A stretch of 35,853 nt of DNA from a virus. The DNA lies in IMG/VR virus record IMGVR_UViG_3300001846_000178, positions 1 to 35,853 of that record; one strand, written 5' to 3'. Position 1 is the stretch's first letter. Every line of letters starts with the position of its first letter. The notes under the pieces were generated by a model. The model saw only the letters and a program-made list of their open reading frames with translations, searched no databases and was not told where the DNA came from. This document shows, in pieces, positions 24,791-35,853 of the stretch. The translations under genes were made by a program, and so were the position numbers.

Positions 24791-25978
24791 ATGAGCACCT
24801 GGCTACCAGACACAGAAGTTAGCGTTGGCAAAATAATAAAAGCAGAACACTTTAACACAATGTTAAGGCGTTTAAAAGACTTCTGGGTAGGCGATTTATA
24901 TACATACACATCAGATCATACTGAAAATGATCCTATTCCTGCTGATGTTCCATTTAGACGACATGGTTGGGGTCAACCAAACATTTTGCCTGCAGAAGTA
25001 AGTGTAGGTCAAATTATTACTGCAGAGCATATTAATCATCTAATAGTAGTTCTTAATGTAGCAATATTTCATATTGATAAAACAGACTTACCTCCAATGG
25101 CAAAAATTACATTTAACTATGATAACGATCCATATGGAACACCAACTAATAGTATAGCAACTGTAGACATGTCATATTATACTTTAATAATGACAAAAAT
25201 GGATCAAATTGAAAATGCAAAATACGATGCAGATAATATATCTATTATAACAGATGTAGCATTAGTAGAAACTACACAAGGATTTACCTGGAGCGATGAC
25301 TTGTATTGTATTTTAGGTGCAACATTTAATGATTATAATGAAGCAAGACATTATTTTAATAGTGGTGGTGTAATTACATTTGAACTAGAATGTGGAGGCG
25401 CATCAGGCGGATCTATACCTAAGTGGGAACAATTTTTTCATCTAATTGGTGAAATAAGAATTGGTGCAGACAGTTCTACTACTACTGGTTTTCTTCAAAA
25501 CACTATTATAAACGGAGGATTTTATAATATAGATTTTGGTACAGATTGGACAACAATATTTGAAATTGCTGGGCAGCAATTTATTAATAGTGAATATGGC
25601 CCTGGAGGAGAATACGCTGGAGAATATGGAAGAGGTGAATACGCTGGAGAATATGGTAATGTATATAGCCTAGGTGAATATGATTCTAGACGAGTACGTG
25701 TTCAAGGACGTATTATTGAAGATATCAATGAATATAGAATAGAACTTAGAATAATATTATTAGAAGACGCAGAGGATGATCTGCTTCCTATTCAAAATAC
25801 GATAAGTGTAACTGTTGGATATTTAGAAATTTTAGACACACCTACATTATCAGACTATACTAGTATTACAGGACTAGAACAATATTTTACATTTAAAGAT
25901 AACCCTAGCTATAAATTTGAAGCTAAACAAAGTCCAACTGTAAGCATAGTTCAGCAGTGGACATCTGAAGATCTTTAA
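24791..25978 (+). CDS. Repeat-containing virion/fibre protein
   Basis: A 395-residue protein, probably an appendage. The first 90 residues contain a duplication: E9-VSVGKIIKAEHFNTM and E69-VSVGQIITAEHINHL, 60 residues apart. The middle is beta-rich and varied. At about residues 273-292 a Gly-Glu-Tyr repeat (GEYAGEYG, twice) resembles the flexible repeats of adhesive fibres. No enzyme motif is seen. It is the last gene of the late virion block, and its stop is followed by the sigma70-type promoter of the accessory module. Whether it is a fibre or a chaperone cannot be decided by eye. Confidence 0.65.
   Translation: MSTWLPDTEVSVGKIIKAEHFNTMLRRLKDFWVGDLYTYTSDHTENDPIPADVPFRRHGWGQPNILPAEVSVGQIITAEHINHLIVVLNVAIFHIDKTDLPPMAKITFNYDNDPYGTPTNSIATVDMSYYTLIMTKMDQIENAKYDADNISIITDVALVETTQGFTWSDDLYCILGATFNDYNEARHYFNSGGVITFELECGGASGGSIPKWEQFFHLIGEIRIGADSSTTTGFLQNTIINGGFYNIDFGTDWTTIFEIAGQQFINSEYGPGGEYAGEYGRGEYAGEYGNVYSLGEYDSRRVRVQGRIIEDINEYRIELRIILLEDAEDDLLPIQNTISVTVGYLEILDTPTLSDYTSITGLEQYFTFKDNPSYKFEAKQSPTVSIVQQWTSEDL
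25610..25656 (+). repeat. Exact 20-base tandem repeat with a 27-base period
   Basis: The 20-base unit at 25610-25629 recurs exactly at 25637-25656, giving the nine-residue repeat GEYAGEYGR/GEYAGEYGN in the 24791 gene. The identical DNA suggests recent expansion by slippage or duplication. Confidence 0.85.
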
Positions 25979-26040: not shown

Positions 26041-26388
26041 ATGGATGAAAGATTACAGAAAGCACTAGACTTTTCTAACTATACACTTACACTAAACAAT
26101 CAAAAAAGAAATATTAAAAATAGAGTTGCACAGCTTCAAATGGTGCATAGTGATGGTGGTGTCTTTATTGCAGACCATACAACTATTAATTTTGTTAAGC
26201 ATATGGCTGATAATGACCATAAGAATGTTTATATATTAGACAGTAAAAATAATCCTATTAAGGTTACAAATCCATCTGACTTGTATGATAAATTGATGAG
26301 TGCATACTATAGTGCAACTAACGAGTATGCAACAGAATATGAAAAGCTAAGGAAGGCTAGGAACATTAAACAAATTATGGATTGGTAA
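26041..26388 (+). CDS. Small conserved phage protein of unknown function (115 residues)
   Basis: I do not recognise a function. It begins M-D-E-R-L-Q-K-A-L-D-F-S-N-Y and has a helical start, a middle with GGVFIADHTTINFVKHM and I-L-D-S-K-N-N-P-I, and a long helical C-terminal half (S-A-Y-Y-S-A-T-N-E-Y-A-T-E-Y-E-K-L-R-K-A-R). I believe similar short proteins occur in other marine T4-like phages, but I cannot name them. It is the first gene behind the sigma70-type promoter, so it is likely expressed early or in the middle phase. Its stop overlaps the next start (TAATG). Confidence 0.8.
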   Translation: MDERLQKALDFSNYTLTLNNQKRNIKNRVAQLQMVHSDGGVFIADHTTINFVKHMADNDHKNVYILDSKNNPIKVTNPSDLYDKLMSAYYSATNEYATEYEKLRKARNIKQIMDW

Positions 26389-27278
26389 TGGCGTACGAAG
26401 CAGAAAATGGTGTTTGCTTCTTTGCTTACAACAATAAAGAAATTGATTATATAGAGCTCGCAGTACTAGCAGCAGGATATGTAAAAAAATATTTGGGCCT
26501 TCCTGTGTGTCTCATAACAGATAGTGGAGGCAAAAGCTGGTTGTACGAAAGCCAACAACAAGATAAAAAATATATTGATTATATTGTTGAAACAGAAGAT
26601 GAGTTGCCTACAAACATGCGCAAGCATTATGACAGTCCTTGGACTGAATTTTCTGCTCAGTTTAGCAACGGTAACAAACATAAAATTTATGAGTATAGTC
26701 CTTTTGAAAAAACATTACTGCTAGATATTGACTACATTGTAAAAACAGACTTTCTACTAAAAATATTTGAAAGTGAAAATCATATAGCAATGTTTGATTC
26801 TGCACTTACTGCTCGTAACTCATTACCAGCGTTAAATGAAAGACGTTTGTATGATGCTGGAGTTAAAATGTGGTGGAGTACTGTTGTATATTTTGACCGC
26901 AGTGAGTTCAGTAAGATGTTTTTTGACTTATGGGCGCATGTTGCTGATCACTATGATTTTTATCAATACCTATATAACTTTCCTGGAAAATTATTCCGTA
27001 CAGACTATTGTGTAAGTATTGCTGCACACATACTTAATGGTATGGAAGATGGAGATATTATTAATAACTTTGACAATATTCCTATGAGTTTTATGAGTCA
27101 AAAGGATGACATAGTTGAAGTAAACAATTATGAGGATTGGATATTGTTAGCTCATGATCCACGTGAACCTTGGAAGAATATTACAGTGAAGCATAGTAAA
27201 TATGACTTGCATGCAATGAATAAAAGAGCACTTGCGAGAATGACACCTAAATTATTGGATATGTTACGAAATGAATAA
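26388..27278 (+). CDS. GT-A-like glycosyltransferase (DxD)
   Basis: A 296-residue protein that probably transfers a sugar from a nucleotide donor. It has a Rossmann-like start (V9-C-F-F-A-Y-N-N-K-E), a hydrophobic strand ending in L111-L-D113-I-D115, which is the DxD metal and donor site, and downstream V-V-Y-F-D-R and D-Y-C-V-S-I-A-A-H-I segments typical of GT8-like GT-A enzymes. The H-S-K-Y-D-L-H segment near the C-terminus could bind substrate. The start is the ATG of TAATG; a TTG six bases upstream is open but lies inside the previous gene and is less likely. It overlaps the next gene by 8 bases. Donor and acceptor are unknown. Confidence 0.7.
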   Translation: MAYEAENGVCFFAYNNKEIDYIELAVLAAGYVKKYLGLPVCLITDSGGKSWLYESQQQDKKYIDYIVETEDELPTNMRKHYDSPWTEFSAQFSNGNKHKIYEYSPFEKTLLLDIDYIVKTDFLLKIFESENHIAMFDSALTARNSLPALNERRLYDAGVKMWWSTVVYFDRSEFSKMFFDLWAHVADHYDFYQYLYNFPGKLFRTDYCVSIAAHILNGMEDGDIINNFDNIPMSFMSQKDDIVEVNNYEDWILLAHDPREPWKNITVKHSKYDLHAMNKRALARMTPKLLDMLRNE

Positions 27279-28113
27279 TGGATATGTTATAAGTGCAATT
27301 ACTGATATAGAAAAAAGACAAGCCACTACGCTTGCTTACACTATTAAGAGTTCTATGCCTGATGCAAATGTAACGCTTGTTACAAATAATTTACAACAAA
27401 TTGACAAAGAATATTATGAACCTTTTAATGAAATTGTTGAATTTCCTTTCACAGTTAAAGGTACTACAAGACAAAACGATTGGCAATTATATTGGGCTAG
27501 TCCGTACCAAAATACAATTGCTATTGATTGTAAGTCTATTCTTAAACAAAGCCAATATCAACTTTGGGATTATCTAATTGAAGGATATGATATTGCATTT
27601 CCTAATAGTGTGTTACACTACAACGGAAATAATATAAAATTAGATAATAGAAGAGTATATGAGGAAGAATACTTTACAACTAATTTGTGTTCAGGAATGT
27701 TTTATTGGAAAAAAGATACAGAACTAGCTCTAAAATATTTTAAAATGGCAGATGTAATTATGCAATGGTGGGAGGATAGCTGTAGGAAGTTTTATGCAGA
27801 ACATCATGTTCCTTTGTATTATGATAGCGACCTAACTCATAGTCTTATTGGTAATCTTATAGGGGAAGATCTCACAGTATCTGATAGTGATTTATTTACA
27901 TATATTGATATGGATGCTACTCTTGCAAATGGATATTTAGGTAGGTGGAACAATTGGACTGATAGGTTAAGTGTATGGGCAAGTAATAATGGCAAAATTA
28001 AAATACAAAATTTTGCTATTAACAGACTACTAAACTATAATGATGATAATTTTTTAACACAAGAAATTTATAATGAACAGCAAAACTATTACAGATACTC
28101 AAATAAAAAATAA
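27271..28113 (+). CDS. GT-A-like paralogue with altered DxD (D-C-K)
   Basis: A 280-residue protein similar in plan to the preceding gene: beta-alpha start (Y5-V-I-S-A-I-T-D), then V-T-L-V-T-N-N, then N-T-I-A-I-D86-C87-K88 at the place where its neighbour has L-D-I-D. The third position of DxD is Lys, so metal-dependent activity is doubtful; it may be an inactive partner or use another residue. F-T-T-N-L-C-S-G-M-F-Y-W and Y-D-S-D-L-T-H-S-L follow. It overlaps the previous gene by 8 bases and the next by 41 bases, so translation is coupled. Divergent duplication of a GT is my reading; the family of both is unproven. Confidence 0.55.
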   Translation: MNNGYVISAITDIEKRQATTLAYTIKSSMPDANVTLVTNNLQQIDKEYYEPFNEIVEFPFTVKGTTRQNDWQLYWASPYQNTIAIDCKSILKQSQYQLWDYLIEGYDIAFPNSVLHYNGNNIKLDNRRVYEEEYFTTNLCSGMFYWKKDTELALKYFKMADVIMQWWEDSCRKFYAEHHVPLYYDSDLTHSLIGNLIGEDLTVSDSDLFTYIDMDATLANGYLGRWNNWTDRLSVWASNNGKIKIQNFAINRLLNYNDDNFLTQEIYNEQQNYYRYSNKK

Positions 28114-29065
28114 TATACCATATTGGGTTAAGTTTTCTAAGCAAAACGGTAAAATAAAAGGTATAAGTAGTAGTCCTATACAGGACTTTGATGATAGTGA
28201 GCGAGTTATTGAAAGTATTAATCCAGTATGCAGAGACTTACTAAAAGGAAAAGCCAACAGACGTAACTATGCTGTGCTTTGGGATCCTGTAAAAAATATT
28301 TGGGAAGTTGATGTAAAAAGTAGTACGTTAGTTATAAAGCCATTAAGCGATAGACTTGCGCCAGTTACAACAGAAAAAAATCCTTTTTCTACTGATATAC
28401 ACATTACAATTAGTAAATTATCAGGTGCAGTTAAACTTACAGCCAACTTAAAACAAATAGCAAAGCATCTAAACCTAAGTAGTATACAACAAATTGTTTC
28501 AGACGATACAGGATTAATAGATCTTTATTTTACTAGAAAAAATGATCCTGATTATCTTATACAAGTGCTTAGTGTAAATGCTGAGGAACTTATTGTAAAC
28601 AGAGAAACAATTACATATATCGACATAAAATTTTTAGATACTATAGATTGGACAGACGTTAGTTTATACACAAAACCTATTTTTAAAATGTATAGTATGG
28701 AGTTTTTAGAGAGTAATGTAGAAATTAAAAGTACGCAATTACATGGTCAGATTAGTCGAGCTACATACAAAAACAATACAAATGACACAGATATAAATAT
28801 ATACGTAGTTAATGATAAAGTTATGATAAAATCTAATCTTACTCATCAACAACTTTACTACTTTAAAGGAAAAAAGACTTTTCCAATTTACATAAGTGAT
28901 AATGAAATAGATAACTATATTACAACACTAAAACTAAACACATTAGATTTGTGTCATAATACTATAACAGAACTAGATAAGCCTTGGTATTGGCCTGATG
29001 AACCATTTATTACTTACAAACATCCTAAACTAAGGATAAACTACCATAACGGAGAACAGCAATGA
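28073..29065 (+). CDS. Uncharacterised protein of the glycosyltransferase module (330 residues)
   Basis: No family recognised. It has no membrane or signal segment. It begins with Y-W-V-K-F-S-K-Q-N-G-K-I, which looks like a small strand-rich domain, and alternates beta-rich segments with charged stretches such as K-P-I-F-K-M-Y-S-M-E-F-L-E-S. The C-terminus ends with P-W-Y-W-P-D-E-P-F. The ATG at 28073 lies 41 bases inside the preceding gene, and no other early ATG is available; the long overlap suggests coupling. It ends with ATGA overlapping the next start. It belongs to the module by context only, perhaps as an adaptor or acceptor protein. Confidence 0.75.
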   Translation: MNSKTITDTQIKNNIPYWVKFSKQNGKIKGISSSPIQDFDDSERVIESINPVCRDLLKGKANRRNYAVLWDPVKNIWEVDVKSSTLVIKPLSDRLAPVTTEKNPFSTDIHITISKLSGAVKLTANLKQIAKHLNLSSIQQIVSDDTGLIDLYFTRKNDPDYLIQVLSVNAEELIVNRETITYIDIKFLDTIDWTDVSLYTKPIFKMYSMEFLESNVEIKSTQLHGQISRATYKNNTNDTDINIYVVNDKVMIKSNLTHQQLYYFKGKKTFPIYISDNEIDNYITTLKLNTLDLCHNTITELDKPWYWPDEPFITYKHPKLRINYHNGEQQ

Positions 29066-30048
29066 CAAATATGACAAGTATCAACGAATTTGATATAGTA
29101 TATCTTTCTTATGATGAACCTAATGCAGAAGAAAATTTTGCAGACCTATTAGACAAATGTCCGTGGGCAAAACGTGTACACGGTGTAGAAGGTTCTGATG
29201 CTGCACACAAAGCATGTGCAATGGAAGCAGAGACAGATAGATTTATTACTATTGACGGAGACAATATTGTACGACAAGATTTCTTTAGTACTGAAGTTGA
29301 TATGGATAAAGTTAGAGATACAGATGTTATTAGCTGGGCTGGTAAAAATACAATCAATGGTTTAGTTTATGGTAATGGTGGTATTAAGTGTTGGCCTAAA
29401 AGTGTTGTAATGAATATGCGTACACATGAAAACGCTCCTACAGATGACCCACGTGCGCAGGTAGACTTTTGCTGGAATATTAACTATGTACAGATGAACA
29501 ACATTTATTGTGATGTTATGAATAACGGTAGTCCATTACAGGCATGGCGGGCAGGTTTCCGTGAAGGGGTTAAGATGACATTGGTAGATGGAGACGTGGT
29601 AGATCCTCTACAGCTGGAAAGACTTGTTCATAAGAAAAACTTCCAAAGACTTCTAACTTGGATGAGTGTAGGTGATGATTGTGAGAATGGTATTTGGGCA
29701 GTGTATGGTGCTAGACTAGGATGTCAAATGACAAATATTCTTAGAGATACTTGGGATTGGAAAAATGTAAGAGACTTTAATTGGTTAGTTAACTATTTCG
29801 AAACGGAAGTATTACCTAAGTTTCAAGACAACGATGACCAATTGTGTAAGCGGACAGGTGTACGTTGGAACTACAAGGCTGTTGAAGAAGAAAGTTTACG
29901 CCTAGGCATTGAGCTAAGACGTGACTTAAAATTACCTATTGCAGATTTAGGAGTAGAAGGAAGTCGATTCTTTAAATCAGTTTATGTAAACCCTAGTCGG
30001 TTAGGCGCACAGGTACGTGAGGATCAGGTAGAAGATACCTTAGAGTAA
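29062..30048 (+). CDS. Glycosyltransferase-like protein with DGD motif
   Basis: A 328-residue protein of a type common in marine myoviruses. F10-D-I-V-Y-L-S-Y-D-E-P-N-A-E-E-N starts a GT-A fold, and F61-I-T-I-D65-G-D67 is a textbook DxD, followed by F-F-S-T-E. Y-G-N-G-G-I-K-C-W and a W-R-A-G-F-R-E-G segment fit the acceptor side of GT2-like enzymes. The C-terminal third is helical and carries charged D/E repeats. It probably builds or attaches a sugar. It overlaps the previous gene by four bases (ATGA) and is followed after 3 bases by the first radical SAM gene. Donor and acceptor are unknown. Confidence 0.65.
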   Translation: MTNMTSINEFDIVYLSYDEPNAEENFADLLDKCPWAKRVHGVEGSDAAHKACAMEAETDRFITIDGDNIVRQDFFSTEVDMDKVRDTDVISWAGKNTINGLVYGNGGIKCWPKSVVMNMRTHENAPTDDPRAQVDFCWNINYVQMNNIYCDVMNNGSPLQAWRAGFREGVKMTLVDGDVVDPLQLERLVHKKNFQRLLTWMSVGDDCENGIWAVYGARLGCQMTNILRDTWDWKNVRDFNWLVNYFETEVLPKFQDNDDQLCKRTGVRWNYKAVEEESLRLGIELRRDLKLPIADLGVEGSRFFKSVYVNPSRLGAQVREDQVEDTLE

Positions 30049-30051
30049 TTT

Positions 30052-31251
30052 ATGAATAAAGTAAAACATCAACCATGGGCATCTGGCGCATCTGGCCATA
30101 TGAGTCATCCTATTTTTGGTAATGTGTGGATTAAAGATACTCAGGGTTTAGATTATGAGCAGCCAGACTTAAAAGGCAGATACTGTAATAAACTTTTTAC
30201 ATGGCTTGAAGTTGATATGCATGGTAGATGTTGGATGTGTTGTCCTAGTTGGTTGCCTTATAATATTGGCAATATACTGGAAGACAGTATAGAAGATATC
30301 TGGAACGGTCCAAAAGCTCAAGAGTTACGTAAGCAGATTTTTTCAGGAGACTGGCATTATTGTCAGGCTTCTTTTTGTCCAGCTATACAATCAAATGATT
30401 TACCAACTATTGATAGAGTTTTAGCAGATAAAGTGTCTTCTCATGATTTTGAAAAACAAATGCTAAAAGACAAAACTACAATTGTACCTGTACTACCAAC
30501 ATACATAAACTTTAGTAATGACGAAAGTTGTAACTTAAAATGTCCAAGTTGTAGAACCACAAAGCTATTATATACATCAGGCAACCTTTATGATAAGCGT
30601 AAAGCAATCAATGACAAAATGATTGAAGCCTTTTTGACAACACCAACAGACAGACATTTTGGTATTTACGTAACTGGTAGTGGAGATCCTTGGGCAAGTA
30701 AAATATACAGAGATATGTTATACAACTTAAACGGTAACGACTTTCCTAATTTGTCAATTAGTATGCAGACAAATGGCGTAATGTATACACCTAAGTTATG
30801 GGATAAAATAAACAAAATACATAATAACTTACGTAATTGTAGGATTAGTTTTGATGCAGCTACAAAAGAAACATATGAAGGCAAAACAAGACTAAACGGA
30901 GATTGGGATTTATTATTATCTAACTGTGAGTTTTTAGATAGCAAGAAAAAAGAATATCCTAAGTTTAATATCATTTATGACTTTGTAGTACAGTACGACA
31001 ACTATAAAGAAATGACCCAATATATAGAATTGGTACAAGAAAAGTTTCCTAATCATCATCAGATATGTTTTAGCATGGTAAGTGATTGGGGTACGTGGAG
31101 CCCAGAAGTTTACAATCAAAAATGTATTTGGAAAGAAGATCATCCTGAGCACGAACAATTTTTGGAACTTTTAAGAGATCCAATCTTTGATGATCCAAAA
31201 GTTGTATTGGGTAACCTAACAAGTATGAGAGAGAAGGCGTTAAGCAAATGA
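30052..31251 (+). CDS. Radical SAM protein 1 with N-terminal Cys-rich domain
   Basis: Radical SAM enzyme of 399 residues. The [4Fe-4S] cluster motif is C160-N-L-K-C164-P-S-C167 (CX3CX2C). T208-G-S-G-D-P-W replaces the usual GGE strand and should help to bind SAM. Before the core lies a domain with C45, C60, C63, C64, C104 and C109, which could hold an auxiliary cluster; such SPASM/twitch-type domains usually sit at the C-terminus. I-S-F-D-A-A-T (about residues 266-272) fits a core strand. SPASM-type enzymes often modify peptides or sugars. The start is ATG 3 bases after the previous stop, and the end overlaps the next start (ATGA). The substrate is unknown. Confidence 0.82.
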   Translation: MNKVKHQPWASGASGHMSHPIFGNVWIKDTQGLDYEQPDLKGRYCNKLFTWLEVDMHGRCWMCCPSWLPYNIGNILEDSIEDIWNGPKAQELRKQIFSGDWHYCQASFCPAIQSNDLPTIDRVLADKVSSHDFEKQMLKDKTTIVPVLPTYINFSNDESCNLKCPSCRTTKLLYTSGNLYDKRKAINDKMIEAFLTTPTDRHFGIYVTGSGDPWASKIYRDMLYNLNGNDFPNLSISMQTNGVMYTPKLWDKINKIHNNLRNCRISFDAATKETYEGKTRLNGDWDLLLSNCEFLDSKKKEYPKFNIIYDFVVQYDNYKEMTQYIELVQEKFPNHHQICFSMVSDWGTWSPEVYNQKCIWKEDHPEHEQFLELLRDPIFDDPKVVLGNLTSMREKALSK

Positions 31252-32744
31252 ATGAAAATGAACTACAACGTGCATTAGATATGAAAGAGCGCCTTAATAA
31301 AGTTGGCTCTGGTTTTTGTTTGGCTAAATGGGATCAAGTAACTATGCACTTGCATAATGGTATGACACATAGTTGCCACCACCCACATCCTCATAAAGTT
31401 GATATTGACGAAGTAAAACGTAATTACAAAGCAATACATAACGATACAGAAAAACTAAAACAACGGGCATGCATGTTGAGAGGTGAGCGTCCTACTCCAT
31501 GTAACTATTGCTGGCGGGTTGAAGATAATAATAAAGACGCTGTAAGTGATAGATATTTAAAGAGCAGTAACCTATTTGGTCATAGATTTGATGAGATTTT
31601 AAAGAGTGGACTAGGTGCAGACCATACTCCAGAATATGTAGAGGTTAGTTTTAGTAATGCTTGTAATTTAAAATGCACTTATTGCGGCCCTCATTTCAGT
31701 AGTAAATGGGTTGCGGAACAAGAAGCAAATGAACCTATAATGCTAACAGATGCAGTAACTAAAGAAGATACCTGGAACTATCATGGCCTAGATTGGTTAC
31801 GAAGTGTAAACGAGCTTCCAATACCTGCTAAAGATTATAATCCATATGTAGAGGCATTTTGGAAATGGTGGCCAGAACTTAAACAAAGTCTTAAAACATT
31901 AAGAGTGACGGGTGGCGAGCCTTTAATGAGCAGAGACACTTTTAAACTTTTAAAACTAATTGAAGAAGATCCTATGCCTGATCTTCAATTAGGAATGAAT
32001 ACTAACTTAAATGCACCAGAAAAAAACTGGCAAGAACTTATAGAGTTTATTAAACGTAATGAAGACCAAAACTTAGTTAAAAAGATTACTTTGTATTCCA
32101 GTTTAGACGGATGGGGCAAGCAAGCTGAATATATTAGAAGCGGTTTAGACTTTAATTTACTTTGGGATAGACTGATGTATATGATTGAAAATCATCCAAG
32201 TGTTGATAATACAATTATGACTGCATATAGTTTGTTAAGTTTACCTAGCTACAAACGTATGCTAGAAGAAGTTTTAGCAGTAAAACAAAAATATAATAGA
32301 TATAACGGATTATTAGAAAGTAGATTTAATCAATATAAGAATTGGTTCCATGAAAATAGTGATCCTAATTTTTGGATACGTAATGAAAAACCATGTGTAG
32401 TACATTTAGATATTAGTCCAATTTACTTTCCTCCTTTTCTTTCTGTTACAGCGGCGCATAAAGAACTGGCAATGCCTTATCTATGGGATCAATATAGTTT
32501 TATGATGCACAACTTAACATTGGGCGAGGACAACAGGAACTTCTATGACTTTGAAGCAGAGAAAATGGGAAGAGTAGCAGACTATAACTACTACAACGGC
32601 ATAGGCTATGACAAATGGGATAGTGATCAAAAGACCCATACACAAAACTTTAAACGGTTTATTAATAGTATTGATAGGCGCAGAGGAACAGACTTTTGCA
32701 AAGTATTTCCTGAACTAGAAGAATACTATAGAGGTATAGAATGA
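31248..32744 (+). CDS. Radical SAM protein 2 (N-terminal twitch type)
   Basis: Radical SAM enzyme of 498 residues. The cluster motif is C139-N-L-K-C143-T-Y-C146, followed by G-P-H-F-S-S-K-W, and the SAM motif is G222-G-E-P-L. The N-terminal domain has C24, C43, C75, C85 and C88 plus a His cluster (S-C-H-H-P-H-P-H, about 42-49), enough for an auxiliary cluster. It shares C24, C43 and the main cluster position (139) with the next gene product, so the two are paralogues. This layout matches what I recall as the 'twitch domain-containing radical SAM' family of phages and marine bacteria. The C-terminal third (from about 330) is longer than in the partner. Both gene ends are ATGA overlaps. Confidence 0.85.
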   Translation: MNENELQRALDMKERLNKVGSGFCLAKWDQVTMHLHNGMTHSCHHPHPHKVDIDEVKRNYKAIHNDTEKLKQRACMLRGERPTPCNYCWRVEDNNKDAVSDRYLKSSNLFGHRFDEILKSGLGADHTPEYVEVSFSNACNLKCTYCGPHFSSKWVAEQEANEPIMLTDAVTKEDTWNYHGLDWLRSVNELPIPAKDYNPYVEAFWKWWPELKQSLKTLRVTGGEPLMSRDTFKLLKLIEEDPMPDLQLGMNTNLNAPEKNWQELIEFIKRNEDQNLVKKITLYSSLDGWGKQAEYIRSGLDFNLLWDRLMYMIENHPSVDNTIMTAYSLLSLPSYKRMLEEVLAVKQKYNRYNGLLESRFNQYKNWFHENSDPNFWIRNEKPCVVHLDISPIYFPPFLSVTAAHKELAMPYLWDQYSFMMHNLTLGEDNRNFYDFEAEKMGRVADYNYYNGIGYDKWDSDQKTHTQNFKRFINSIDRRRGTDFCKVFPELEEYYRGIE

Positions 32745-34030
32745 ACATCAAAGATTTGATAGAATCAGATGCAAGCAAACAAGAAATAATAGACAAAACT
32801 AAAAGCTATTGTCCTTTGCTATGGAGTCATCTGCATGTAAGTGCTAGTGGTGATGTTCTGCCTTGTTGTATTGGACATTGGGACTTACCTATTGGTAATA
32901 TAAACAGGCAAAGTTTTGACGAAATATGGCAAGGCGACGAAATTAAAAAACTGAGAACAAAACTTATACAAGACAAAAAAGTACCTCATTGCCGTACATG
33001 TTATATGAAAGAAGATAGCAGTGGATTTAGTTTAAGACATGATGCTATTAATAAATTTCATGATGTAAGTAAACAAATGGTATTAGACACACAAGACGAT
33101 GGCACTAGTGATAGTGCAAAGCCAGTGTATTGGGATATTAGATTTAGTAACATATGTAATATGAGATGCAAAATGTGTGGACATTTTAGTAGTAGTAAAT
33201 GGTTTGCTGATGCTAAGGAGTTAGCTGAGGATGGTATATACAACTATACAACTGATAATCCTAAAGCAATTATACATGGTGTAGAGGATAGCGTTAGCTT
33301 ATTAAACAGATTGGAAGAGTATTTACCACATGTACAAGAGATATACTTTGCAGGTGGAGAGCCATTGTTTATGGAGGAACATTATACTATTCTTAATAAG
33401 TTAGTTGAGCTAGGTATTACTGACGTTCATATTCGTTACAGCACAAATCTTAGTATAATGAAATATAAAAAGACTAATGTAGTTGATTTATGGAAACACT
33501 TTAGTAATGTTTATTGTGCTGGTAGTATTGACACATATGGCGCACGTGCTGAAAATATTAGGAAAGACACTGTTTGGTCTGAAATAGAAGAAAATATGTC
33601 TATGATTAAAGAGAGTACTCCTCATGTCAAAGTTGGAATAAGTCCTACACTACAGATAATGAATGCATATACTGTTTGTGATTTAAATAAAGACTGGATT
33701 GAGAAGGGATGGGTAACTCGTTATAGTATGTTCTGGAATATACTATCTAACCCAAGTTTTTATAATATACAACATTTGCCAGATCATATGAAAGAAGAAA
33801 TAGAAACTATCTGGAAGGAACACTTAGAATGGTTACGTATTGCAGATCATAGTCCTGTACACGGAACAATTAATACTGCAATTAAATGGATGTGGAGTGG
33901 TAAACATAATCCAGAAGAACTTCATCAAATGTGTAAGCATACAAAACGTATAGACAAAATGCGTAATGAAGATACACGTGCTACCTTCCCTGAGCTAAAA
34001 TATATTTGGGATAATTATTGGGATGATTGA
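32741..34030 (+). CDS. Radical SAM protein 3 (N-terminal twitch type)
   Basis: Radical SAM enzyme of 429 residues, paralogous to the preceding protein. The cluster motif is C139-N-M-R-C143-K-M-C146, then G-H-F-S-S-S-K-W, which is nearly the same as in radical SAM protein 2, and the SAM motif is G205-G-E-P-L. The N-terminal domain has C24, C42, C43, C84 and C87, set out like a SPASM/twitch domain: a strand L-H-V-S-A-S-G-D-V-L-P-C-C, then I-G-N-I and F-D-E-I-W, a pattern usual in SPASM domains. It overlaps the previous gene by ATGA and the next by 8 bases. It may act with radical SAM 2 as a pair on one substrate. The substrate is unknown. Confidence 0.87.
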   Translation: MNIKDLIESDASKQEIIDKTKSYCPLLWSHLHVSASGDVLPCCIGHWDLPIGNINRQSFDEIWQGDEIKKLRTKLIQDKKVPHCRTCYMKEDSSGFSLRHDAINKFHDVSKQMVLDTQDDGTSDSAKPVYWDIRFSNICNMRCKMCGHFSSSKWFADAKELAEDGIYNYTTDNPKAIIHGVEDSVSLLNRLEEYLPHVQEIYFAGGEPLFMEEHYTILNKLVELGITDVHIRYSTNLSIMKYKKTNVVDLWKHFSNVYCAGSIDTYGARAENIRKDTVWSEIEENMSMIKESTPHVKVGISPTLQIMNAYTVCDLNKDWIEKGWVTRYSMFWNILSNPSFYNIQHLPDHMKEEIETIWKEHLEWLRIADHSPVHGTINTAIKWMWSGKHNPEELHQMCKHTKRIDKMRNEDTRATFPELKYIWDNYWDD

Positions 34031-35246
34031 ACTTAACAATAATAATTTCCATGACGGACTAATTTTCAAATTATTAAAACTGTATGACCTAAACTACGCT
34101 GACAGTAAAAGTTATATACACTGGTGTGACATACAAGGCGATCCAGAACAAAATGATTTTTACTTGGGACGTATATCTGACAATTTAGATAGTCAAACTA
34201 TTAGCGATGCACAAAGCGGTAAAGCTAAAATAGTTTTTGCTACATGGCAAGAAAGTATAGGGCCTAGTATTGAGCCATATCAACTATGTGATCATTATTT
34301 TGATGTAGACTTGTTATTAGAACAGTTCTGTGATGACAATAATATTCCTTATGAAAATGTTGTATGGGTTAGTGGTGACTTAACTACAGAAGCAAGACAA
34401 AAAAGCAAAGTAATTAAAAGCTATAGCTATACTTGTTATGGTCACGACATAATGGAACAATATAATAATCTCAAAGATAAAGGACTATGGGATATTATTC
34501 CATATAAGGAAAGAAACTTTAATAAAAAGTTTTTATGTTTACAAAGATGGATGAAGCCAGGAAGAGTATACTGGAGTTATCTTATGCATTTGAATGACAC
34601 AATTCGTAAAGGACATGTTAGTATACCTAATCGTATGGCAACATTTAGTTTTAGTGAGAAAGTTAAACAGTTTATTAATAATTTAACAAATCATCCAGAA
34701 CGCTATACTAACGAAAATATTAGTAAAGAAAAAATTAAAAAAATATATACATTGCTAAGTGATTTGAATTACGATGTTCCTTTAATATTAGATGTGCCAG
34801 ATGCAAACGACAACTGGTGTGCTGGTGAAGATACAACTCTAAGCAGTGTTCCTTATTATAATACAAGCATGTTTAGTGTAATTACGGAAACACAGATAGA
34901 AGGTCCAGGTGTGTTTATAAGTGAAGCAGCATTTAGACCTTTTATATATCAACACCCTGCTATATGGATAGGACAACAATACACAGTTAAGTATTTAAAA
35001 GCAATGGGATTCAAAACTTGGGACTGGCTATTAGACGAGAACTACGACAATATTCCTAGTATGTTTAATAGACTGGAATATGCCCACGCAAGTTTACAGC
35101 AATTGTGTATTAAAAATGTAGATAAAGAGATTTTATATAAAATACAGGATCAATTAGACTATAATTTAGATTGGATGAGTACAGGATTTTATAATTATCA
35201 AAAACAAAAATTGGATAATATCCTAAAAGATATATTATATAAATAA
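34023..35246 (+). CDS. Probable GT-B-like glycosyltransferase (hypothetical)
   Basis: A 407-residue protein. The distinctive part is about residues 281-355: S-M-F-S-V-I-T-E-T, then F-I-S-E-A-A-F-R-P-F, H-P-A-I-W-I-G, L-K-A-M-G-F-K-T-W and D-E-N-Y-D-N-I. I know this order from phage and marine bacterial proteins that look like the donor-binding half of GT-B enzymes ('vvTEt...ftEKt.kPi...PfI..G...L...GF.TF...~DEsYD'). Here the Lys of the usual E-K is Ala, so activity is uncertain. The start ATG is 8 bases inside the radical SAM 3 gene (ATGATTGA). The stop is part of a perfect late promoter motif at 35238. Confidence 0.55.
   Translation: MIELNNNNFHDGLIFKLLKLYDLNYADSKSYIHWCDIQGDPEQNDFYLGRISDNLDSQTISDAQSGKAKIVFATWQESIGPSIEPYQLCDHYFDVDLLLEQFCDDNNIPYENVVWVSGDLTTEARQKSKVIKSYSYTCYGHDIMEQYNNLKDKGLWDIIPYKERNFNKKFLCLQRWMKPGRVYWSYLMHLNDTIRKGHVSIPNRMATFSFSEKVKQFINNLTNHPERYTNENISKEKIKKIYTLLSDLNYDVPLILDVPDANDNWCAGEDTTLSSVPYYNTSMFSVITETQIEGPGVFISEAAFRPFIYQHPAIWIGQQYTVKYLKAMGFKTWDWLLDENYDNIPSMFNRLEYAHASLQQLCIKNVDKEILYKIQDQLDYNLDWMSTGFYNYQKQKLDNILKDILYK
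35238..35245 (+). promoter_or_regulatory. Candidate late promoter overlapping the stop codon before the epimerase gene
   Basis: TATAAATA is an exact late-promoter match made by the codons TAT AAA TAA. It lies 23 bases upstream of the epimerase ATG, and initiation near 35251 would leave a leader of about 18 bases with GGA at 35260-35262. Exact copies also occur inside genes at 24118 and 28792, so chance is a real possibility. Confidence 0.4.
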
Positions 35247-35268: not shown

Positions 35269-35853
35269 ATGATTTTATTAACAGGTGCAAATGGATTTAT
35301 TGGAAGCCATTTAGCTAAAAAACTAAAATGTATTACTGTAGATAAAGAAAATTGCCAATATAATGGCGACTTAAATGATATTAATTTTGTTAATTCACTA
35401 CCAGATGTGGACACAGTAATACACTTAGCAGCTTTTAATAGTACAAAAAACTTTTATAGTACACCTTTTAGTGTAATAGATAGTATTATTACTCCTACAA
35501 TGAACTTATTAAAGCGTTATCCTAATGCACACTTTGTATATGCAGGCAGTAGCGAGGAGTATGCTGGTACAATTAATATGGGATGGGCAAAGCCTCCTAC
35601 ACCAGAAGATGTTCCTCTTAGTATTGAGGATATTACAAACCCTCGTTGGTGTTATGCAAGTGGCAAGATTGCAATGGAGAGTGCAGTAATAAGTCACAGC
35701 ATACAATCAGGTAACACATATACTATATTAAGGTTCCATAATATCTACGGACCAGGACAACAAAATCATTTTATTCCTGAATTTATAGACAGAGTATTGC
35801 ATGGACAATATATATTATATGGATATGATAACACTCGTAGCTTCTGTCACATA
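35269..35853 (+). CDS. NAD-dependent sugar epimerase/dehydratase (extended SDR), C-terminus outside window
   Basis: Nucleotide-sugar epimerase or dehydratase of the extended SDR family; 195 codons are in the window and the frame is open at the edge. The NAD-binding motif is G6-A-N-G9-F-I-G12, D25 at the end of strand 2 favours NAD, and the catalytic Y129-x-x-x-K133 is present (WCYASGK) with S/T in V-Y-A-G-S-S-E-E-Y. R-F-H-N-I-Y-G-P-G follows, as in GalE/RfbB-like enzymes. It probably supplies a sugar nucleotide for the glycosyltransferases upstream. The start is the ATG at 35269; an ATG at 35264 is stopped after two codons. The exact reaction cannot be told without the C-terminal half. Confidence 0.88.
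   Translation, partial: MILLTGANGFIGSHLAKKLKCITVDKENCQYNGDLNDINFVNSLPDVDTVIHLAAFNSTKNFYSTPFSVIDSIITPTMNLLKRYPNAHFVYAGSSEEYAGTINMGWAKPPTPEDVPLSIEDITNPRWCYASGKIAMESAVISHSIQSGNTYTILRFHNIYGPGQQNHFIPEFIDRVLHGQYILYGYDNTRSFCHI

Follow-up and report, generated by a model that had tools for sequence, protein, structure and literature searches.

Three linked radical SAM genes with N-terminal twitch-like domains in a putative glycan-tailoring operon of an uncultured tailed phage

Introduction

What would a phage gain from three different radical S-adenosylmethionine (SAM) enzymes encoded side by side? The question is raised by a 35,853-base window of viral DNA (positions 1-35853 of the 43,073-base environmental virus record IMGVR_UViG_3300001846_000178), in which three radical SAM genes, here called rA, rB and rC, lie at 30052-34030. 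Radical SAM enzymes are oxygen-sensitive and costly; if three distinct ones stay together over large divergence, along with glycosyltransferases and sugar-tailoring genes, the phage must derive some definite benefit from them. We favor, with a probability of roughly 0.55, that the three genes encode non-redundant radical SAM enzymes of a phage operon for glycan biosynthesis and tailoring, and that they perform radical steps on a sugar. Gene order, linkage, cysteine conservation, domain order, the structural model of a neighboring GT-B glycosyltransferase (U407) and the families of the sugar genes were computed directly.

Cysteines and domain order of the three radical SAM proteins

30052..31251, plus strand: rA, 399 amino acids (aa), N-terminal SPASM/twitch-like domain followed by the radical SAM core
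31248..32744, plus strand: rB, 498 aa, member of the N_Twi_rSAM family
32741..34030, plus strand: rC, 429 aa, member of the N_Twi_rSAM family

A first-pass annotation, made from the sequence alone, had described three consecutive overlapping radical SAM genes here, and this was borne out with an ATGA overlap at both junctions. The CX3CX2C motifs were found at exactly the cysteines it had named: C160/C164/C167 in rA, together with GSGDP, and C139/C143/C146 in both rB and rC, together with GGEP. Relatives were collected by scans of IMG/VR; they are all metagenomic contigs, several of them near-duplicates, and lineages were counted after removal of near-duplicates. Loss of the catalytic cysteines in relatives, which the annotation had allowed for, was not seen, and CX3CX2C was kept in all aligned distinct viral homologues (15/15 for rA, 219/219 for rB and 282/282 for rC).

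Ahead of the core, rA carries auxiliary cysteines C45, C63, C64, C104 and C109, rB has exactly four invariant ones (C24, C43, C85 and C88), and rC has C24, C42, C84 and C87 plus C43. In the same homologues four auxiliary cysteines are conserved almost as strictly as the core set. Four conserved auxiliary cysteines would ligate one auxiliary cluster, indicating from sequence that each enzyme has a single such cluster, of the twitch and not the SPASM type. The two clusters of SPASM call for at least seven conserved auxiliary cysteines, and four to five are conserved here.

Family models confirmed the cysteine-rich domain that, according to the annotation, comes before the core of each protein. 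In rA (aa 45-105) and rC (aa 24-88) the Pfam SPASM model scored above its cut-off. NF033640 (NCBIfam N_Twi_rSAM, twitch domain-containing radical SAM protein; curated cut-off 170 bits) scored 369 bits for rC and 288 bits for rB, both above the cut-off, and its match starts at aa 22 in rB and aa 21 in rC and so includes the N-terminal domain. The score of rA was 70.5 bits, below the cut-off, which makes it a distant relative. The annotation had described the three genes together; all are radical SAM genes with an N-terminal cysteine-rich domain, but rA stands far from rB and rC both in its motif and in its score. The reversed domain order is likewise present, but it is not a novelty, since NCBIfam already curates this layout as NF033640.

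In the twitch enzymes BtrN and MoaA the auxiliary domain is C-terminal, whereas in rA, rB and rC it precedes the core. With a profile of 39 rC relatives, aa 19-89 of rC matched the C-terminal twitch of BtrN (E 3.7e-6), so the auxiliary domain is of the BtrN kind, shifted to the other side of the core. The AlphaFold2 model of rC was confident throughout (predicted local distance difference test score, pLDDT, 94.8); it shows a radical SAM barrel, and its top structural matches were radical SAM enzymes. The structures nearest to the barrel were tied or nearly so: BlsE (Z 12.2), anSME (11.8), SkfB (11.5) and DesII (11.1). By structure comparison the fold also turned up among proteins encoded by uncultured tailed phages and, as a more remote match, in the cultured Vibrio phage KVP40. 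Single-sequence searches of rA, rB and rC against solved structures gave weak matches only, and for rA an "enterotoxin" hit (E 0.05) was put down to chance.

A maximum-likelihood tree separates rA, rB and rC into three deep clades, and in each of them phage sequences are joined by some from bacteria; the three are therefore not recent duplicates.

Operon organization

After fibre-like genes, the window holds a series of genes that share one strand and mostly overlap, in the order X115, GT1, GT2, U330, GT3, rA, rB, rC, U407 and epimerase. The neighbors of the radical SAM genes are as follows.

26041..26388, plus strand: X115, small conserved protein, first in the operon after the fibre-like genes
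26382..27278, plus strand: GT1, putative GT8-like protein with invariant D115xD117; marginal glycogenin match, E = 1
27271..28113, plus strand: GT2, putative transferase, evolving fast
28073..29065, plus strand: U330, evolving fast, mean identity between lineages 23%
29062..30048, plus strand: GT3, putative GT-A protein, DxD with invariant D65/D67; the most conserved upstream neighbor
34023..35246, plus strand: U407, GT-B-fold glycosyltransferase by predicted structure; 8-base overlap with rC
35269..35853, plus strand: NAD-dependent short-chain dehydrogenase/reductase (SDR) epimerase/dehydratase, PF01370, YASGK kept; cut by the window end and resuming after 19 Ns
record 36626-37417 (L093:2627-3418): short sugar dehydrogenase, 263 aa
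record 38316-38930 (L093:4317-4931): short DegT aminotransferase, 204 aa
record 38927-39889 (L093:4928-5890): U320, conserved phage family with invariant H95, H161 and E164

Past the window, the record holds a redoxin-like gene, the short dehydrogenase (UDP-glucose/GDP-mannose type), a P-loop gene and a cupin, and further along the short DegT aminotransferase, U320, a C-methyltransferase and a paralogue of U320. The 19 Ns occupy record positions 35854-35872, inside the epimerase gene, and the window ends where they start.

Conservation of the block across lineages

The first-pass annotation had proposed to look for the same gene order in phages, and the IMG/VR scans recovered it with the genes linked: rA-rB-rC-U407 with GT3 upstream was found in six further distinct lineages (L083, L008, L086, L005, L002 and L248), seven in all. 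The whole order X115-GT1-GT2-U330-GT3-rA-rB-rC-U407 plus sugar genes recurs in the seven lineages, with U407 after rC in 7/7. Order and cysteines are thus kept across independent lineages, and the arrangement is not chance. The sugar half is inverted yet adjacent in L005 and L248. In L002, an insert of DHFR, thymidylate synthase and a nucleotidyltransferase splits GT3 from rA; DHFR, thymidylate synthase and a cytidylyltransferase-cupin fusion lie between GT3 and the radical SAM genes at L002:5208-7314 and at L239:4273-6343. Four contigs (L236-L239) have the same sugar set, with other genes of rA, rB and rC type interspersed.

Among 16 distinct close relatives of rA, 14 have rB or rC directly adjoining it on the same strand. 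In five contigs an rA-rC pair follows GT3 while rB, U407 and the sugar set are missing, which leaves GT3 with rA-rC as the smallest repeated unit; GT3 with rB occurs in many other contigs. U320 was found only in contigs that carry the radical SAM and sugar block, and every contig found with a U320 gene has several radical SAM genes. No U320 was present in 369 and 385 sampled bacterial genomes of two classes (754 total), a result which shows little on a bacterial source of the sugar set.

Mean identity between lineages was 0.61-0.66 for rA, rB and rC and 0.56-0.68 for the radical SAM and sugar genes together, against 0.23-0.31 for a fibre gene (24791-25978), GT2 and U330. Taken as a whole, the block has about 65% identity from lineage to lineage and the adjoining fibre-like genes about 25%. 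The Spearman correlation of pairwise identities was 0.82 for rA with rC and 0.84 for rA with U320, and only 0.11 for rC with the fibre gene. Judged by these identities, the radical SAM genes and sugar genes are co-inherited as a block while the fibre gene diverges. The three genes, which the annotation had placed among glycosyltransferase-like genes and an epimerase, form a co-inherited unit with glycosyltransferases and sugar-nucleotide-type enzymes next to it, and its order is kept in seven lineages.

As a separate observation, rB of L083 and L002 share 93% identity while the other block genes differ more, and the branches of these two in the rB clade are short, which suggests that rB was recently exchanged between these two lineages.

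Glycosyltransferases and sugar genes

The annotation had counted four glycosyltransferase-like genes and an epimerase around the triple. The epimerase stood (PF01370), and so did the gene at 34023-35246, U407, which models as a GT-B glycosyltransferase. Its predicted structure (pLDDT 88) has the GT-B fold, with a best Z of 13.0 over 280 residues; on structural re-alignment all 50 listed rows were glycosyltransferases or sugar enzymes of the glycosyltransferase fold, and the top matches were tied between T4 DNA beta-glucosyltransferase (Z 13.0) and alpha-1,3-fucosyltransferase (12.5). A Pfam search of U407 family members gave chance matches only. The other calls stood in part. GT3 (29062-30048) has the invariant aspartates of DxD and a weak GT2-family Pfam match in 3/25 members, and its profile gave chance matches only against solved structures. 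GT1 (26382-27278) has an invariant DxD beside its marginal glycogenin match, and GT2 (27271-28113) is left as putative.

The sugar set comprises the Pfam families Epimerase, UDPG_MGDP_dh, Cupin, DegT, Methyltransf_13/23/14, TylF, FkbM and CTP_transf_like + MannoseP_isomer. The C-methyltransferase carries all three expected domains, and the sets of relatives add a TylF O-methyltransferase, an FkbM methyltransferase, a PhyH oxygenase and a cytidylyltransferase-cupin fusion. In all lineages both DegT, at 201-223 aa, and the sugar dehydrogenase, at 261-266 aa, are short and of conserved length. The DegT lysine motif is kept in all lineages (SFQFHK in L248), and the dehydrogenase GGACLPKD in 7/9. 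These two proteins may have a substrate other than a standard nucleotide sugar and are possibly minimal enzymes for a non-nucleotide one.

Proposed pathway and alternative explanations

That the genes could make an unusual sugar, as first suggested, is kept as the best reading, from the linkage of the block to glycosyltransferases and sugar enzymes. We infer the carbohydrate substrate, the reaction type and the acceptor by analogy with known systems. The SDR dehydratase/epimerase, cupin isomerase, short DegT, short sugar dehydrogenase and C-methyltransferase would make an amino or keto sugar. Each radical SAM enzyme would cleave SAM to the 5'-deoxyadenosyl radical and, following known chemistry, abstract hydrogen at a carbon of the sugar. 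In the N-terminal twitch, the one auxiliary 4Fe-4S cluster would then accept the electron, as in dehydrogenation of the BtrN type, or it may assist epimerization or dehydration. U407 and GT3 would place the product, from what is known of phage biology most likely on a host surface glycan during infection and less likely on the virion.

Several points weigh against this pathway. GT1 and GT2 are, by sequence, weakly supported as transferases, and no nucleotidyltransferase was identified within the window's own cluster. The dehydrogenase (263 aa) and the aminotransferase (204 aa) are unusually short, so canonical nucleotide-sugar activity is not assured. The rA-rC pair found without the sugar set in five relatives would be able to work with other partners, and in the modeled core fold of rC the peptide-modifying anSME and SkfB tie with the sugar or nucleoside enzymes BlsE and DesII.

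The last point bears on a different substrate. The radical SAM enzymes might modify a peptide or protein (a tail fibre, a host protein, or something like a ribosomally synthesized and post-translationally modified peptide), and the adjacent sugar genes would then serve a separate purpose. SPASM-type radical SAM enzymes are mostly peptide maturases, the rC core lies no further from anSME, SkfB and SuiB than from sugar enzymes, and fibre-like virion genes precede the three genes. But one auxiliary cluster is predicted here and SPASM has two, neither a short precursor open reading frame nor a peptide-recognition gene was seen in the operon, the linkage to sugar enzymes and the GT-B transferase is tight, and identities in the block do not follow those of the fibre gene that was tested (0.11 for rC). 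We consider a peptide or protein substrate rather unlikely. Less probable again is DNA hypermodification, in which the block would build a sugar for modified bases of the phage genome. The highest structural match of U407 is the T4 DNA beta-glucosyltransferase, but the fucosyltransferase is tied with it and GT-B folds are similar across the class. DHFR and thymidylate synthase do lie inside the cluster in two lineages, between GT3 and rA or rB; the other lineages, however, lack the inserted synthase in their clusters, and it has the canonical PFNIASY motif, which we take to mark thymidylate synthase rather than dCMP hydroxymethylase.

The genes could also be selfish or redundant paralogues that piled up where the genome is hypervariable and serve no common function. 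Copies of the family do vary, from 3 to 17 matches per record, and the region may correspond to a variable island known in marine myophages (PMC7029224). Against this, the three deep clades are not those of recent copies, the order and all functional cysteines are kept over large divergence, and the radical SAM genes are co-inherited with the sugar genes, so we disfavor such build-up as very improbable.

If the substrate of the three enzymes is a sugar, as we favor, the operon would open a new radical carbohydrate chemistry, the large family NF033640 would gain an activity, and the long-standing notion of phages remodeling the host surface to exclude competitors would become testable.

Comparison with known systems

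NF033640 shares the layout of rB and rC, and its family name carries no reaction; the operon differs from it in that rA falls below the cut-off and three deep clades stand together. BtrN, the aminocyclitol dehydrogenase of butirosin (4m7s/4m7t), is alike in its one-cluster twitch with four cysteine ligands, which sits after the core in place of before it. BtrN and MoaA act on small molecules, and electron uptake by the auxiliary cluster of BtrN has been reviewed (PMC9012708).

In pelagimyophages, the host recognition cluster between VrlC and gp14 has radical SAM cassettes as variable parts, and marine myophage glycosyltransferases were proposed to modify the host surface glycan (PMC7029224). 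It resembles our locus as a variable island that follows baseplate and virion genes and combines radical SAM cassettes with glycosyltransferases and genes of the fibre-like kind; what sets our locus apart is the specific triple with its sugar set, in a phage whose gp6 is jumbo-phage-like. The T4-like environmental virus TARA_ERS488813_N000010 has 12 radical SAM genes, which were linked to Fe-S metabolism (PMC5332604), and so is similar in the many radical SAM genes of a single phage genome. Vibrio phage K566/K567 (OZ196521) held the only cultured-phage sequence relatives of rB and rC that we found, three annotated radical SAM genes close together, but identity is about 22-26% and the other genes of the operon have no match there. 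No relatives of rA or of GT3 were found among cultured phages.

The locus had been put forward as a candidate for an undescribed system. Across the records, sampled genomes and papers that were searched, no characterized pathway with the same order appeared, and bacterial neighbors of rA relatives (Clostridia, Bdellovibrionota and Bacteroidota loci) showed none; but radical SAM cassettes and a 12-gene phage are published. The literature searched held no description of this operon, of a functional N-terminal SPASM arrangement or of a radical SAM phage glycan pathway. The permuted layout and phage radical SAM cassettes are thus already known, while this operon of triple and sugar set is not described in the papers found.

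Source of the record and wider radical SAM arrays

Genes for the virion of a tailed phage fill the first 26 kb of the window, including a late sigma factor, baseplate genes and a 3676-residue virion protein; the operon sits after the virion genes, and the record stops before any neck gene. Among cultured phages, jumbo myophages such as PA5oct and SCTP-2 have the closest gp6-type baseplate proteins (35-38% identity), and the record therefore probably comes from a large, jumbo-like, uncultured tailed myophage, of which it is a fragment. No link to SAR11 or cyanobacterial phages, groups in which the annotation had proposed to look, emerged from these matches. No near-identical DNA to the window was found in cultured phages.

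Elsewhere, too, relatives of rB and rC are grouped: many other phage contigs hold them in arrays of five or six genes, in some cases with carbamoyltransferase genes alongside. The 151-kb record IMGVR_UViG_3300025809_000991 (G001) has 17 family matches, with an rA-rB-rC operon at 47-51 kb. A broader reading, which we hold only tentatively, takes the present operon as a compact instance of something more general: modular arrays, each of three to about a dozen radical SAM enzymes with a permuted twitch, by which environmental phages would add radical-tailored sugars to surface glycans; if true, it would mean a phage-borne branch of carbohydrate radical chemistry without a characterized counterpart.

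A phage-borne Fe-S assembly scaffold (PF01521) was considered as support for the operon and set aside, being in 1/9 related records only. For a neighbor gene in other arrays, a guess of amidinotransferase was not confirmed by Pfam and was dropped. Arrays of the rB-rB-rC-rC-rC pattern, larger than the triple of the window, were seen in L181, L155, L207, L057, L010 and about 80 other loci, often together with a carbamoyltransferase gene, and are common in environmental phage contigs. At 61-89 kb G001 has another radical SAM cluster, with roughly a dozen genes. In the Gammaproteobacteria metagenome-assembled genome MED685 (L096, NZGL01000008.1), most of the 21 family matches lie on the phage-like contig C3, and this contig may derive from a phage and have been binned together with bacterial DNA.

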